Positions 29,241 to 34,294 of a stretch of 64,000 nt of DNA are shown here, piece by piece. Under the pieces are notes generated by a model. That model did not search any database. It saw only the letters and a program-made list of their open reading frames with translations, and was not told the origin of the DNA. This stretch comes from a virus. The stretch's first letter is position 1, and every line of letters starts with the position of its first letter. Where the stretch lies: IMG/VR virus record IMGVR_UViG_3300036820_000007, positions 1 to 64,000 of that record. The stretch is one strand, 5' to 3'. The position numbers and the translations under genes are program-made.

Positions 29241-32200
29241 ATGCCGGCCAGCCCCCGCACAATCATGCGCGCGCTCAAGGCGACCGCGCCGACGCCAGCG
29301 CAAGGCGGCTACAGCAGCAGTGCCGGGCCTTTTCTGAGCGGGGGGCCGTCGCCACTGGTCGCCTCGTATTCGGAGTGGGCCTCAGGGCATGCCTACGGGC
29401 AGTCCAACGCCTTGCCGCGGGACTGGCAGTCGTTCCTGTCGGGCATGTTCGGGCCCGGCGTGCCGGTGCGGCCAGTCCCGATCGATGTCCCGAAGCCCGG
29501 GGATGAGCGCCCGGAACCGCGTCGCTGGCAGTATCCCATCTCCTGGGACCTCAATCTAGGACAACCCGGTACAGAAGGTATCGGCAAACTAGCTGATTTC
29601 AATACACTTCGGACGCTGGCGGACATGTATTCGGTCGCCCGCAGCTGCATCCAGCTGCGGAAGTCCGAACTCCGCGGCGTGGGCTGGGACATCGCGCCGA
29701 CCAAGGACGCCAGCAAGGCGATGCGGGGCGACCACAAGGGCATGACCGAGTTCGCCAAGCGCCGGGCAGAGGCCGTGCGCTTTTTCAGGAGGCCGGACGA
29801 GAACTTTGCGGACTTCACCTCATGGTTTGACGCCATGCTTGAGGAGATCTTCGTCACTGACGCGCTCGCGCTTTATGTCCACCCATCGCGCCTGCCGGGC
29901 AAAGGGCTCTTTGGCTCGAACGTGGGGGCTCTCGACCTGATCGATGGGTCCCTTATTAAGCCTTTGGTCGATGTGCGCGGTTCGCGTCCTTCGCCACCGC
30001 AAGTGGCGTATCAGCAGTATTCATACGGCGTGCCCCGTGTGGACCTTATGTCCCTGATTCTGGACCGCGAAGACATGGGCGCCCCCGAAGCCGAATACCG
30101 CGGCGACCAGCTGATGTACCTGCCGCTATGCCAGCGTACGTGGTCGCCTTATGGGGAGTCGCCCGTCGAGAGGGCGATTATCCCGATCATGGCAGGGCTG
30201 CGTAAGCAGCAGTTTGTCCTAAATTACTTCGATGAGCGAAGTATTCCCGGGTGCTTCGTGTCCCCTGGTGACCCGAATATGACACCAAGTCAGATTCGTG
30301 AGCTTCAAGATGCTTTGAACAGCATTGCGGGCGACCAGACCTGGCAGCAGAAGATCATCGTCCTGCCGGGCGGCTCGAAAGTGGACCCGCAGAAGCCGAT
30401 CACGTTGGCGGACGCTTTCGACAACGTTGTCATGATTCAGGTATGTATGGCCTTCGACGTGATGCCGTTCGAGCTCGGCATCATGCCCGAGGTCTCCACG
30501 ACCGTGGCCTCCGGCGCGGCCCGGCAGATGGCGACCGCTGCCCAGGACATCCAGGAGCGCAAAGGCACCGTCCCGTTGCTGCTCTTCCTGAAGATGGCGA
30601 TCTTCGACCGCATCATCCAAGATGTATGTGGTATGTCCGACATGGAGTGGCAATGGGAGGGTTTGGAAGAGGACGAAGACGAACAAATCCTGACAGAACT
30701 CCTAGTCGCCCAGGTTGGCTCCGGCATGTGCTCGATCGACGAGGCCCGCCAGGAGCTCAACCGCGAGCCCTGGGGCCTGCCGATCACCTCCGACCCGGGC
30801 TGGGCCACCCAGTGGGGCGGCTTCGTCCCGCTCACCGGACTGGCGGGCGCGACCGCCCAGCAGCAGGGCGGCTCGCCAGCTCCGGGCAACCCGCAAGGCA
30901 AGCCGAACGCCCAGCCAGGCACTGTGCAGGGAAAGCCCGCCGACCTGACGCTGCCATCCGAAGTCGAGCACCGCGGCGCGCCCTCACCGGTGTCGGCAAC
31001 CGTCCCTGCCACGCGGCCACGTAACCAGCAGTCACGTGGCCAGCGCCGCCAGGTTGCGGCAACCGTCAGCGATCGCCAGCGGCGCACCGGGGCCACCACC
31101 CCCGCTCACGCAGCGGCAATGGCCACCGGTGGCCGCGGACCGAAATCCGGAGCGTCATCCAAGGGAGATGCTACCCGCGAGCTCGGCCTGCTGAAGGCAC
31201 ATCTGCGCCGCGGTGGCAGGGTCACCGACTGGGAGCCGCGTGACATCCCCGGCCACGCCATGGCCACTATCAGCGAGGACCTGGCCAAGGGCCTGACCGC
31301 TGATCAGGCATGCGACATAGTCCGCGACTTGATCACCAAGGACGGCAAGTCGATCACCTTGTCCTCGCCACTCGGCACCGGGTTCGTCCCGTACGACCTG
31401 GTCGGCCAGCGCCGCCCGTCGGCCGAAAGCCCGGCAGCGGCGGGCCTGGCCGTCCTCGCCGCGGACACGGGCCGCGTGCTCATGCTGCAGCGCGCTGCGA
31501 GCGATGACGATCCGGCTTCGGGGTGCTGGGAGTTCCCCGGCGGCTGCCTCGAGGATGGCGAGGACCCGGCGATGGGCGCAATGCGCGAATGGGCTGAGGA
31601 GGTCGGAGCATACTGCCCTGCTGGCGAGCCCGCAGGCGGCTGGACCTCGGCGGACGGTGTGTACGCAGGCCACATCCTGGTCGTCCCGTCCGAGGCGGCA
31701 GTACCCGTGCATGGCGATCGCGACGAGGTGTCCAATCCGGACGACCCGGACGGGGATGCAATCGAGGCAATCGCCTGGTTCGACCCTGCGCAGATCCCCG
31801 GCAACCCCGCGGTCCGCGACGAGCTCCGCGCCGATGCTCTCGCGGTGCTGCGCGCCCTGGCCGCCGCCCTGCCTGGTGGCGTAATCAAGAACGCGGCCGA
31901 TCTCTCGGACCCGAATCCCGTCGAGTCCGAGCACGTGAAGAATCAAATGCGCCGAAATTATCCAGAAAAGGCGCTCGGGTGGATCGACGGTGCCCGGTGG
32001 CTCGGCCCGGTCCGGATCCCGCAGGACCGCATCGACTACGACGACATGGACAAGTGGGCCGCTTCCCACCAGAAGGCCCGCGTTAAGCATTTCGCCCGCC
32101 AGATCGAGGACGACGAGTCTCACCTGCACCCCGTTGTCGCCGTCCAGGAGCCAGGCGAAAACAAGATCAAGGTGATCGATGGCCACCACCGCACCCTTGC

Positions 32201-32390
32201 CTACCGCAAGCTCGGCCAGCCTGTGAAGGCCTACGTCGGCTTCGTCGACCACGACGGCGGCGAGTGGGATGAGACCCACGCCTTCCAGTTCCACCAGGGC
32301 GAGGACCCGGCCAACAAGGGCGGTGGTGCCGGCCCAAAAGTTCGAGCAAGCGGGCCATCTGGCCCGGGCAGTGGCGGGACGAGCAGCTAG
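29241..32390 (+). CDS. portal protein fused to Nudix and ParB-like domains
   Basis: 1049 residues; ATG behind GGGGGTGAGCT. Residues about 1-530 are an SPP1/HK97-type portal, the dodecameric DNA channel (CRTWSPYGESPVERAI, TVASGAARQMATAAQDI). A linker (540-640) leads to a helical segment and SITLSSPLGTGFVPYDLV, also found in the major capsid protein. Residues about 725-870 are a Nudix hydrolase with an intact box: GCLEDGE, seven residues, REWAEEVGA. Residues about 925-1010 resemble a ParB/sulfiredoxin-like fold (KVIDGHHRTLAYRKLG). The frame stops at 32390, but a -1 frameshift at 32333 would extend it into the MuF protein. Catalytic activity of the extra domains is inferred from intact motifs only. 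Confidence 0.9.
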   Translation: MPASPRTIMRALKATAPTPAQGGYSSSAGPFLSGGPSPLVASYSEWASGHAYGQSNALPRDWQSFLSGMFGPGVPVRPVPIDVPKPGDERPEPRRWQYPISWDLNLGQPGTEGIGKLADFNTLRTLADMYSVARSCIQLRKSELRGVGWDIAPTKDASKAMRGDHKGMTEFAKRRAEAVRFFRRPDENFADFTSWFDAMLEEIFVTDALALYVHPSRLPGKGLFGSNVGALDLIDGSLIKPLVDVRGSRPSPPQVAYQQYSYGVPRVDLMSLILDREDMGAPEAEYRGDQLMYLPLCQRTWSPYGESPVERAIIPIMAGLRKQQFVLNYFDERSIPGCFVSPGDPNMTPSQIRELQDALNSIAGDQTWQQKIIVLPGGSKVDPQKPITLADAFDNVVMIQVCMAFDVMPFELGIMPEVSTTVASGAARQMATAAQDIQERKGTVPLLLFLKMAIFDRIIQDVCGMSDMEWQWEGLEEDEDEQILTELLVAQVGSGMCSIDEARQELNREPWGLPITSDPGWATQWGGFVPLTGLAGATAQQQGGSPAPGNPQGKPNAQPGTVQGKPADLTLPSEVEHRGAPSPVSATVPATRPRNQQSRGQRRQVAATVSDRQRRTGATTPAHAAAMATGGRGPKSGASSKGDATRELGLLKAHLRRGGRVTDWEPRDIPGHAMATISEDLAKGLTADQACDIVRDLITKDGKSITLSSPLGTGFVPYDLVGQRRPSAESPAAAGLAVLAADTGRVLMLQRAASDDDPASGCWEFPGGCLEDGEDPAMGAMREWAEEVGAYCPAGEPAGGWTSADGVYAGHILVVPSEAAVPVHGDRDEVSNPDDPDGDAIEAIAWFDPAQIPGNPAVRDELRADALAVLRALAAALPGGVIKNAADLSDPNPVESEHVKNQMRRNYPEKALGWIDGARWLGPVRIPQDRIDYDDMDKWAASHQKARVKHFARQIEDDESHLHPVVAVQEPGENKIKVIDGHHRTLAYRKLGQPVKAYVGFVDHDGGEWDETHAFQFHQGEDPANKGGGAGPKVRASGPSGPGSGGTSS
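32333..32366 (+). promoter_or_regulatory. -1 programmed frameshift signal, portal to MuF
   Basis: Slippery heptamer C CCA AAA in portal frame (32333-32339), 11-base spacer, then the stem CGGGCC/GGCCCG with loop ATCT (32351-32366). The -1 frame is open from 32273, has no start codon before a late GTG, and continues as the MuF protein. The decamer GGCCCAAAAG recurs at the tail chaperone frameshift. Confidence 0.75.
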
Positions 32391-34294
32391 CTGACGAGTA
32401 CGCCCAGGACTTCTCCCGCCAGCTGGCCGCCGCGGTCAACGCGGAACTGATCGCTCAGGGCTGGCTGGACGAATGCCAGGCCGCCGAAAAGGCCAGCAGG
32501 CCGCAGCAGAGCCAGAGTCAGCAGCAACGGCAGCAGCAGCAAGCCCGCCAGCAGCAGGCCCGGAGGTACCTGGCGGCGGCCGGGGTCACCGGCGCGATCG
32601 CCTCGGTGATCGGTGGCATCCTCGCCCTTCTCTGGCGCGCTGCGTTCGCGCTCGGCTGGGCCGCGGCCATCCAGATCCTCGGCGTGGGCGGCCTGGTCGG
32701 CGACGAGGCCGCGCTGGGAGACCTGCTCTCGCAGTCCGGGCCGCGGCTGGACGGCATCGTCGAGACACGCATCAAGCGTCTCGAGCAGGCCCTGGCCGCC
32801 GCAGCGGACTCGGGCGTCTCGGCCGGTGAGCTTGCCCAGCAGATCACGGCGATCCTTGGCGGCCGAGCTCCGGCCCGGCTGGTGACCCAGACGGAAACGT
32901 CGTGGGGTGCCGGTCACGCGCAGGTGGCCGCTTACCGAGCAGCCGGAGTGGCGCAAGTTATCTGGCAGACGATGAACGACTCCGAAGTGTGTTTCCCTGC
33001 CGGAACGCCGGTGGCGACGCCCTCAGGCGATGTCCTGATCGAATCCCTGAGGCCCGGTGATCTCGTCCTCACCCCACAGGGGCAGCGTGCCGTCCGTGAT
33101 ACCGGTAGTCGGCTTTACGCGGGCTGCGTCACGGTGCTTGAGGCGGAAGGGGCGACGGTCGCTGCGACGGACGATCATCCGTTCTGGACCGCCGCTGGCT
33201 GGCGGAAGGCGGGACAGCTCGAGCCCGGGGACCTCCTGCAGACGTCCGAGAACCAGTTCGCAGAGGTCGGCCGCGTTGTTCACGTCCGATTCGGCAAGCC
33301 GGACGACGTGCCAGCCCATCTGCCGGAGCGCCCTGTCCTTGATGGCGTCGCTCTCGGGACGCAATTGGTGCCAGTACTCCCCATCGGCCTCAAGGGCGAT
33401 CCATGCTTCCGTGAGAGCGAAGTCGATCGTCCAGTTTTTGACTTGCAGTTCCTGAACGAAGCTGATCCCGAGAGCCGCGAGCGCTTGCCTGACGCGAAAC
33501 TCGAGCATGGTTTCACCCGTGAACTTGCGATAACAGCTGCGGGAGCAAAATCGTCGACCGTTAGCCGGAGCGGAGGGGACGATCCGGAAGCAGTTGCCGC
33601 AGTTGGCGCAGTCCATGTAGACGGGCGGCCGACGGCACTCTTCGGAGCAGTGGTGCCGAGGGTATCGCTTGTCGGCCAGGAACCGGTTGCCGCACCGTTC
33701 GCAGTTGAGGTACTCGGTGTCGGCTGTGGTGCACGCCCTGGAGCAGGTGTTGTACCTGTCAGCGGTGGACTGGCTGACGCTGAATTCCTTCCCGCAGACG
33801 GTGCAGTGCTTAGTGACGCGCCGACTGGAACCCATGCATTCGCGCGAGCAGTAGGCCCGGTCCTGGCGCCCGGTCGTGCAGCCGGGCGCAGGCTGGCGGG
33901 GGTCGAATTGCTTACCGCAGCCGAGGCACTCCCGGGTGGGATAGACGATAGTGTCGGCATGGTAGCAGTCCCTGGAGCAATAGACATGCTCCTTCTTGGT
34001 TCGGCTGCGACGCTGGAAACCTTTGCCACAATGGTCGCAGATGTATGGGAAAGGCATCCTAATGCTCGCGTCCTCGATCTAGGGGAAATCAATGCGCCAT
34101 TGACAGTTTACAATATTGAAGTAGAAGTTGAGCACGTATTTTATGCGTGTCGCTTCCTTGTGCACAATTGCGGTCGATGCCATGGCAATCAAGCAGCAGG
34201 CCCGTGGCCACTGGGCAGCCCATTCCCGAGTGGGGCGCTCAGTCCGCCACAACATCCCAGATGTCGTTGCTTTTTGCGACCTTCCGGACATTAG
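32339..34294 (+). CDS. MuF-type head morphogenesis protein, intein-containing
   Basis: Frame read after the -1 shift. It begins SSSKRAIWPGQWRDEQLADE, then a glutamine-rich coiled coil and a helical MuF core (EVETRIKRLEQALAA-like, QTETSWGAGHAQ, WQTMNDSEV). The intein interrupts it exactly at the conserved cysteine, and the C-extein CGRCHGNQ...PPQHPRCRCFLRP completes the CxxC...HPxCRC metal site typical of MuF. GTG at 32606 is the only in-frame start and would truncate the conserved N-terminal part, so it is probably not used. The predicted fused precursor is 1684 residues, 1291 after splicing. MuF proteins sit inside the capsid at the portal vertex. Confidence 0.8.
   Translation, partial: SSSKRAIWPGQWRDEQLADEYAQDFSRQLAAAVNAELIAQGWLDECQAAEKASRPQQSQSQQQRQQQQARQQQARRYLAAAGVTGAIASVIGGILALLWRAAFALGWAAAIQILGVGGLVGDEAALGDLLSQSGPRLDGIVETRIKRLEQALAAAADSGVSAGELAQQITAILGGRAPARLVTQTETSWGAGHAQVAAYRAAGVAQVIWQTMNDSEVCFPAGTPVATPSGDVLIESLRPGDLVLTPQGQRAVRDTGSRLYAGCVTVLEAEGATVAATDDHPFWTAAGWRKAGQLEPGDLLQTSENQFAEVGRVVHVRFGKPDDVPAHLPERPVLDGVALGTQLVPVLPIGLKGDPCFRESEVDRPVFDLQFLNEADPESRERLPDAKLEHGFTRELAITAAGAKSSTVSRSGGDDPEAVAAVGAVHVDGRPTALFGAVVPRVSLVGQEPVAAPFAVEVLGVGCGARPGAGVVPVSGGLADAEFLPADGAVLSDAPTGTHAFARAVGPVLAPGRAAGRRLAGVELLTAAEALPGGIDDSVGMVAVPGAIDMLLLGSAATLETFATMVADVWERHPNARVLDLGEINAPLTVYNIEVEVEHVFYACRFLVHNCGRCHGNQAAGPWPLGSPFPSGALSPPQHPRCRCFLRPSGH
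33023..34057 (-). CDS. antisense homing-type endonuclease inside the intein
   Basis: 344 residues, wholly within the intein but on the opposite strand and in register with its codons. Residues 1-180 hold five treble-clef-like fingers (CDHCGKGF...YCSRDC, CLGCGKQF...YCSREC, CTVCGKEF, CERCGNRF, CANCGNCF). Residues about 185-280 are a Vsr/DUF559-like nuclease (MLEFRVRQALAALG, WTIDFAL, IALEADGEYWH, GWHVVRLAE) with E, D and ExDG catalytic positions intact. The last 65 residues mirror Hint-coding DNA and may be read-through. ATG at 34057 has only a weak TTAGG site; a candidate promoter lies at 34138-34167. It is expected to cut intein-free alleles of the MuF gene. Confidence 0.85.
   Translation of the reverse strand: MPFPYICDHCGKGFQRRSRTKKEHVYCSRDCYHADTIVYPTRECLGCGKQFDPRQPAPGCTTGRQDRAYCSRECMGSSRRVTKHCTVCGKEFSVSQSTADRYNTCSRACTTADTEYLNCERCGNRFLADKRYPRHHCSEECRRPPVYMDCANCGNCFRIVPSAPANGRRFCSRSCYRKFTGETMLEFRVRQALAALGISFVQELQVKNWTIDFALTEAWIALEADGEYWHQLRPESDAIKDRALRQMGWHVVRLAESDVNNAADLCELVLGRLQEVPGLELSRLPPASGGPERMIVRRSDRRPFRLKHRDAARVKPTTGITDGTLPLWGEDEITGPQGFDQDIA
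34138..34167 (-). promoter_or_regulatory. candidate antisense promoter for the endonuclease
   Basis: Reading leftward: TTGTGC (34167-34162), 18-base spacer, TAAAAT (34143-34138), about 80 bases before the endonuclease ATG. Both boxes lie in the AT-rich codons of the intein's C-terminal splicing blocks. Confidence 0.45.

Follow-up and report, generated by a model that had tools for sequence, protein, structure and literature searches.

A phage MuF intein with a candidate homing endonuclease gene on its antisense strand

The MuF-type capsid gene in the phage DNA analyzed here (the window, positions 1 to 64,000 of IMG/VR record IMGVR_UViG_3300036820_000007, which is 98,488 bp long) is interrupted by an intein, and the opposite strand of the intein carries a nuclease gene in a codon-aligned frame. 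This is very probably a mobile intein in MuF that shares its DNA with its own homing endonuclease, a separate gene on the antisense strand. The arrangement is recurrent and not confined to the window.

Results and Discussion

The MuF gene and its intein

The plus-strand ORF at bp 32606–34294 encodes a MuF/SPP1-gp7-type capsid protein that is interrupted by a class 1-type intein (bp 32990–34168). Its frame differs from that of the portal gene, is open already from bp 32273 and overlaps the portal gene end; the true start is uncertain. The portal ORF itself (bp 29241–32390) has NUDIX and ParB-like regions at its C-terminus, and in a relative (L096) portal, NUDIX and MuF are fused as a single 1120-amino acid ORF. 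Pfam matches on the plus strand are Hint_2 (1.1e-11) and Phage_Mu_F (1.3e-4, under its curated cut-off).

All of the sequence features of class 1 inteins (N-terminal Cys, TxxH, terminal HN and Cys+1) are present, the splicing residues being Cys1, T60-D-D-H63, H392-N393 and Cys+1. The AlphaFold model of the intein is confident at its two ends (pLDDT ∼90 for amino acids 1–101, and Hint-C at 370–393 also confident), and its Foldseek matches include the BIL domain 2lwy, the gp41-1 intein 6qaz and 6bs8, with probability 1.00. The nearest solved intein is gp41-1 by sequence (6qaz/6riz) and 2lwy together with gp41-1 by fold. Because the best Foldseek match is a bacterial intein-like domain, empty host sites matter for calling this element an intein; the insertion site, D..vC..C, is uninterrupted in six relatives (L012, L014, L019, L094, L096 and L099). 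The gp41-like portal intein of mycobacteriophage ET08/Blubba was considered and is only a distant relative at another insertion site.

Between the Hint halves the intein frame is open, with pLDDT below 50 for amino acids 102–369, which are modeled as unstructured. No endonuclease domain was recognized by Pfam in the plus intein frame, which thus lacks the nested domain of canonical inteins, and the element is not a split intein, as its halves lie on one continuous ORF (bp 32273–34291). A preliminary description, made from the letters of the window and a list of its ORFs, had proposed a complete Hint-type intein (Cys1, TxxH, HN/C) in the MuF protein with a spacer devoid of a sense-strand endonuclease, and both points hold.

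The antisense nuclease gene

The minus-strand ORF (Table 1) begins with five zinc finger-like CxxC...CxxxC modules, at residues 7–31, 44–74, 85–109, 119–142 and 150–175, at whose positions strand and helix elements are modeled. The nuclease domain that follows matches the Pfam families MTES_1575 (1.8e-9, just under cut-off), DUF559 (3.9e-8) and Vsr (8e-4, under cut-off), and its residues E186, D212, E223, D225 and H230 are invariant in 12 sequences. The model has pLDDT ∼90 across most of amino acids 1–280 and below 50 for 305–344. Among solved structures, its closest match is to the catalytic domain of I-Bth0305I (3r3p; profile E 4e-16, Foldseek 1.3e-4, TM 0.77 by target), so that the protein has two marks of an EDxHD homing endonuclease, a catalytic domain homologous to that of I-Bth0305I and a gene inside a predicted self-splicing element.

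The sense and antisense frames are codon-aligned across all 344 codons. Homologs of the nuclease stop near residue 285 (bp 33203), which marks the end of its conserved part; in view of this and of the low pLDDT of residues 305–344, the final ∼59 residues, which lie opposite Hint-N, are probably passive read-through. A tblastn similarity of these 59 residues to L007, L091 and L097 was discounted, as it mirrors conserved Hint sequence on the other strand. In the overlap of conserved nuclease and conserved Hint sequence (bp 33203–33292) the wobble positions of the two frames vary, and the middle position that they have in common is conserved. The preliminary description had recognized the 344-residue protein with five zinc fingers and a Vsr/DUF559-like nuclease, the shared codon register over about 1 kb, and double coding near bp 33220–33290; the first two are confirmed, and the third fits the overlap, with the refinement that the remaining nuclease tail is probably passive. 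Structure prediction of both products, which it had suggested, gave good models of the nuclease and the Hint halves and none of the spacer. Elsewhere in the same virus record, outside the window, there is a sub-threshold HNH_3 match (G000:C1:73426-73500).

Expression signals of the antisense genes differ among relatives. An AGGAG lies 9 nt upstream of the conserved start in the antisense nuclease genes of L007, L009, L018 and L011; a perfect TGNTATAAT lies 29 nt upstream of the start in L007 and L018 (L009 matches it at 7/8 positions) and 45 nt upstream in phages celemicas, E2010 and STP-1, where it falls within the codons for the intein's terminal motif. These ribosome-site and TGNTATAAT occurrences are pattern matches and not evidence of transcription. 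The window's nuclease gene has a weak ribosome site only (AGGA, 13 nt), and no recognizable promoter was found for it by a consensus scan or by an extended -10 search; the latter gave sites solely in lower-G+C members, and the consensus scan found none in L255. In the Salmonella Jerseyviruses celemicas and dunkel, an antisense transcript would begin just downstream of TGTGCTATAAT inside the Hint-C codons.

Table 1 Features of the window's MuF gene and related loci (positions in bp of the window unless a locus is named)
Feature	Position or loci	Strand	Basis or remarks
N-extein of MuF/SPP1-gp7-type protein	32606..32989	+	GTG start per ORF tool
Hint-N half with Cys1 and TDDH block B	32990..33292	+	Pfam, AlphaFold, Foldseek
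Intein spacer, intein frame open	33293..34096	+	Recognizable domain absent, predicted disordered
Hint-C half, ending VHN, followed by Cys+1	34097..34168	+	Sequence, profiles, AlphaFold
C-extein of MuF (CGRC...HPRCRC)	34169..34291	+	Intein-less relatives with the same site
Antisense ORF, 344 amino acids, candidate homing endonuclease	33023..34057	-	ORF, Pfam, homologs
Five CxxC/CxxxC zinc finger-like modules, amino acids 7–175, presumed DNA-binding	33533..34039	-	Sequence, alignment, model
EDxHD/DUF559/Vsr-like nuclease domain, amino acids ∼182–283	33209..33514	-	Pfam, alignment, profile, Foldseek
Tail of antisense ORF, probably passive read-through opposite Hint-N	33023..33202	-	Homolog ends, pLDDT
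Stretch coding conserved protein on both strands (nuclease C-terminus/Hint block after TxxH)	33203..33292	.	Alignment, codon-position test
Antisense nuclease embedded in MuF or MuF-like intein (12 loci)	window, L091, L097, L007, L095, L098, L008, L009, L013, L017/L080, L018, L073		
Antisense nuclease in head-morphogenesis gene intein	L255:2584-4443, L256-L263		Jerseyviruses, GZMU_E2010, Angelicage
Convergent free-standing relatives	L012, L014-L016, L019, L092, L094, L096, L099, L112, L115, L116, L120, L121, L126		

Intein-bearing and intein-free phages

The antisense nuclease L198 matches 66 phage records, and nucleases of its type lie antisense inside the annotated head-morphogenesis/MuF gene of Salmonella Jerseyviruses, E. 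coli phage GZMU_E2010 and Gordonia phage Angelicage. Several of these records name the whole gene "NAD+--asparagine ADP-ribosyltransferase", and that of PK1 lists the antisense ORF as hypothetical. Because it occupies a second MuF site (HPN/CR) and has an HTH-type nuclease, the Jerseyvirus element is a relative of the window's element and not the same one; the strongest population evidence comes from a related HTH-EDxHD intein at a neighboring MuF site and not from the window's zinc-finger clade.

The Jerseyvirus gene exists as intein-plus alleles of 1860 bp and intein-minus alleles of 1044 bp. The celemicas gene has 351 matching records, at least 80% of the intein-plus gene being covered in 58 of them; most other matches listed consist of two pieces that span ∼1044 bp, exactly the 816-bp intein being missing, and SETP3 and TUMS_E19 have the exact empty site HPN/CR. 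Alleles with and without the intein, a search for which the preliminary description had recommended, thus occur both here and, as the six empty-site relatives, at the window's site. Between celemicas and dunkel, identity is 70.5% for the N-extein, 100% for the 816-bp intein and 98.4% for the C-extein, a pattern that shows recent lateral transfer and looks like homing with co-conversion of the 3' flank. Stops are absent from both strands in eight Jerseyvirus alleles, among which spacer pN/pS is 0.20 when read as nuclease but 1.05 when read as intein; for the Hint parts, read in the sense frame, it is 0.04–0.06.

A scheme in which homing is the function and MuF the target would run as follows. 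MuF would be translated from the sense strand together with the intein, whose Hint halves would assemble, excise themselves and ligate the exteins, the ∼270-amino acid spacer being an unstructured linker whose sole job would be to stay free of stops. The zinc-finger EDxHD nuclease, independently expressed from the antisense strand, would bind and cut a MuF allele lacking the intein in a co-infecting phage, and repair from the intein-bearing copy would install intein and nuclease together. The nuclease could instead serve exclusion or defense by cutting competing phages, with the intein merely its hiding place. DUF559/Vsr-like domains do also occur in defense proteins (there is a weak NCBIfam match to ProA), and free-standing copies adjoin MuF, but identical inteins with a near-identical 3' flank in the otherwise diverged celemicas and dunkel genes look like homing, and we consider this explanation improbable as a substitute for it. 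Exclusion and homing are in any case compatible with each other.

The same layout in other loci

Single-protein queries (P0001, portal and intein) found almost nothing in viral contigs. An alignment of three relatives that included two distant phage proteins was needed to recover 72 loci there, and a second search with 12 sequences added further ones. A scan of bacterial genomes found a Streptomyces alboflavus prophage, the sole match among 393 Streptomyces genomes. By Hint-N, Hint-C and nuclease profiles, 12 loci (Table 1), from metagenomic phages and the Streptomyces prophage, have the nuclease gene antisense between Hint halves in an aligned register within a continuous MuF or MuF-like ORF. 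Their homing endonuclease genes (HEGs) are ∼35–60% identical, nuclease G+C spans 0.38 (L018) to 0.67, and the Hint motifs and HN/C are intact in all 12. Between most pairs Hint and HEG are more similar than the exteins (0.65 and 0.58 vs 0.37 for the window and L091); the pair L009/L018 is an exception in that its exteins are more similar than its inteins.

Other variants were seen in these scans. One MuF gene (L008:3870-6836) contains two inteins at two sites with an antisense nuclease in each, one of the zinc-finger type and one of a weak MTES_1575 type. The same nuclease domain lies conventionally in the intein frame in L033, L085, L123 and L125, and in L044 and L045 the intein carries an antisense weak HNH-like gene in a non-aligned register. 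At L011:3495-6833 an antisense nuclease gene is flanked by Hint halves, and the sense frame is broken by 15 in-frame stops; this locus resembles a split intein whose endonuclease gene is antisense.

Selection on the two strands

When the frames are codon-aligned, a stop in the sense frame requires TTA, CTA or TCA in the nuclease gene. None of these codons occurs in the 12 embedded HEGs, whereas for the 11 loci that have a codon-usage background the Leu and Ser usage of each contig predicts a total of ∼37; relatives that are not embedded antisense, free-standing and same-strand, have 1–23 of them (1–13 in the free-standing ones). A copy counted as "embedded" when antisense Hint halves flanked it, whether or not the sense frame was open, and L011 satisfies this definition yet has its 15 sense stops. 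A strict phylogenetic comparison of embedded with other copies yielded no more than 3 supported pairs; each of them points the expected way, but the comparison is underpowered (p = 0.25).

These counts bear on the possibility that a free-standing antisense nuclease gene invaded and wrecked the intein, leaving a broken MuF gene with a sense frame open by accident. L011 has the same nuclease together with its sense stops, and related nucleases do stand free and convergent behind intein-less MuF genes, but the lack of sense stops and the intact Hint motifs and HN/C of the embedded copies argue against it, as does the presumable need for the MuF capsid gene. The intein-plus Jerseyviruses, moreover, are viable isolates with strongly constrained Hint sequences, and we regard a wrecked intein as very unlikely.

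At the border between Hint and spacer, the coding constraint moves from one strand to the other. The most variable position is the sense third codon position within the Hint halves and the HEG third position, which is the sense first position, within the spacer; in a close trio, spacer variability at HEG positions 1, 2 and 3 is 0.318, 0.301 and 0.492. The sense spacers of close relatives share ∼40% of their residues, which might suggest that the spacer also encodes a functional polypeptide over its whole length; however, its sense pN/pS near one among Jerseyviruses, the variability of its sense first position and the absence of a fold in the model indicate that this similarity is a shadow of the nuclease, and a dual function has in our judgment hardly any chance of being correct. 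The minus-strand ORF is not due to chance: high-G+C codon usage often leaves aligned antisense frames open, and the window (G+C 0.67) has other long spurious antisense ORFs nearby, but such a by-product, its probability now negligible, is already refuted by a curated nuclease domain with invariant residues and a confident fold, by the conservation of its homologs, by the same layout at the low G+C of L018 and by selection on the nuclease strand.

The preliminary description's reading, an intein endonuclease encoded on the antisense strand, had been exposed to three possible failures: a minus-strand protein without homologs, one without purifying selection, or related inteins with the same spacer but neither zinc fingers nor nuclease on the minus strand. 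Homologs with the same arrangement exist at the 12 loci, purifying selection is seen in the Jerseyvirus pN/pS and in the wobble switch of the window's own group, and the nuclease is indeed present in related inteins whose spacers are long, so the reading is supported.

Origin and free-standing relatives

In a tree of 60 nucleases, that of the window falls in a supported group of 18. Intein-embedded members of this group interleave with free-standing ones, and the nuclease is antisense to MuF wherever a MuF neighbor was identified. The free-standing genes (Table 1) are convergent and lie directly behind intein-less MuF genes, a few of them touching or overlapping the 3' end. The interleaving and the convergent position suggest that the antisense orientation is old and that an intein may have been gained or lost around the nuclease several times. 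In mycobacteriophages Camster and Seagreen (L004:2596-4885 and L146:2096-4427) an antisense Vsr-type gene splits a DNA methyltransferase gene, and no intein was seen there.

Nested nuclease frames in long phage inteins

A scan by Hint-N similarity alone gave 80 loci. Among distinct inteins longer than 200 amino acids, the spacer is overlapped by a long ORF in a different frame in 47 of 48; of 42 such nested ORFs scanned, 21 match HNH_3 and 19 DUF559, and LAGLIDADG is found in the intein frame in one of 43. The intein frames contain no stops, compared with ∼240 expected under synonymous recoding of the nested genes, and the nested third codon position is the most variable in every class. Ten of the 47 nested ORFs are antisense, all at MuF or MuF-like sites (one, L210, has no recognized nuclease domain), and the remainder lie on the same strand; the same-strand out-of-frame version is thus commoner than the antisense one. 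Among L176-L249, most of the long inteins have a same-strand HNH or DUF559 nuclease in the +1 or +2 frame (e.g., L176:4001-4825, L189:3584-4642 and L212:4001-4996), and the nested frame is constant for each insertion site (+1 at helicase DE/CH, +2 at terminase DD/CDALRY). It seems rather likely that phage inteins commonly carry their HEG as an overlapping gene in another frame, antisense at MuF and same-strand in +1 or +2 in helicases, terminases and others; that this is prevalent and largely unannotated among long phage inteins; and that the antisense form is a distinct class with its own promoter, traceable to antisense free-standing genes beside the same target.

Significance and comparison with known systems

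In such an element splicing and mobility would be uncoupled, each having its own gene, strand and presumably promoter. A single kilobase has to satisfy two proteins whose codons are in register, and it offers a clean example from nature of selected coding on both strands; long inteins without a visible endonuclease may have been misread. The arrangement makes the joining of splicing and endonuclease functions in evolution directly testable, and homing can be tested with cultured, closely related intein-plus and intein-minus Jerseyviruses.

The preliminary description knew of no antisense arrangement of this kind, and none was found for an intein in the published literature searched, a search not extending to a preprint on non-canonical inteins of actinobacteriophages (doi 10.1101/2025.01.02.630785). 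Because antisense HEGs of rDNA introns and hidden same-strand HNH genes are known, and because that preprint stands outside the comparison, the arrangement is not rated as categorically new. Antisense HEGs are found in nuclear rDNA group I introns, for example I-DsqI in Didymium squamulosum Dsq.L2066, where the gene likewise runs antisense to the self-splicing mobile element that contains it and has an inferred or potential promoter of its own (PMC9548176). Unlike the window's intein, Dsq.L2066 is an intron RNA that needs no open frame, in eukaryotic rDNA, and its enzyme is of the His-Cys box type. The ShiLan domain and the Pacc40 insertion are hidden out-of-frame HNH endonucleases in phage methylases (PMC11855218). 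They too have a HEG hidden in another frame, with the host frame kept open and folding poorly, but on the same transcript strand and with no splicing domain detected by the authors (PMC11855218), whereas the window has the opposite strand, an EDxHD domain and a Hint domain. Canonical inteins of the PI-SceI and PI-PfuI type have their endonuclease at a conserved insertion position (PMC6801210) and, in a review, intein endonucleases are translated in fusion with the intein (PMC3943268). They share the Hint fold, Cys1, TxxH and HN/C with the window's intein and differ in that their endonuclease is an in-frame domain (PMC3943268).

I-Bth0305I resembles the window's nuclease in fold and sequence of the catalytic domain; it is intron-borne ("Mobile intron protein" in the PDB) and has another DNA-binding part. 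Split inteins separated by EDxHD/Vsr-like homing endonuclease genes were reportedly described by Dassa et al. in 2009. The split inteins, including gp41-1, have in common with the window's element the nuclease family and the position of the nuclease between the Hint halves, the usual endonuclease position, and gp41-1 is the closest solved intein by sequence. The split inteins are physically split with a free gene between the halves, and L046 (sense) and L011 (antisense) resemble that form, whereas in the window the intein frame is continuous and the nuclease gene lies antisense inside it.
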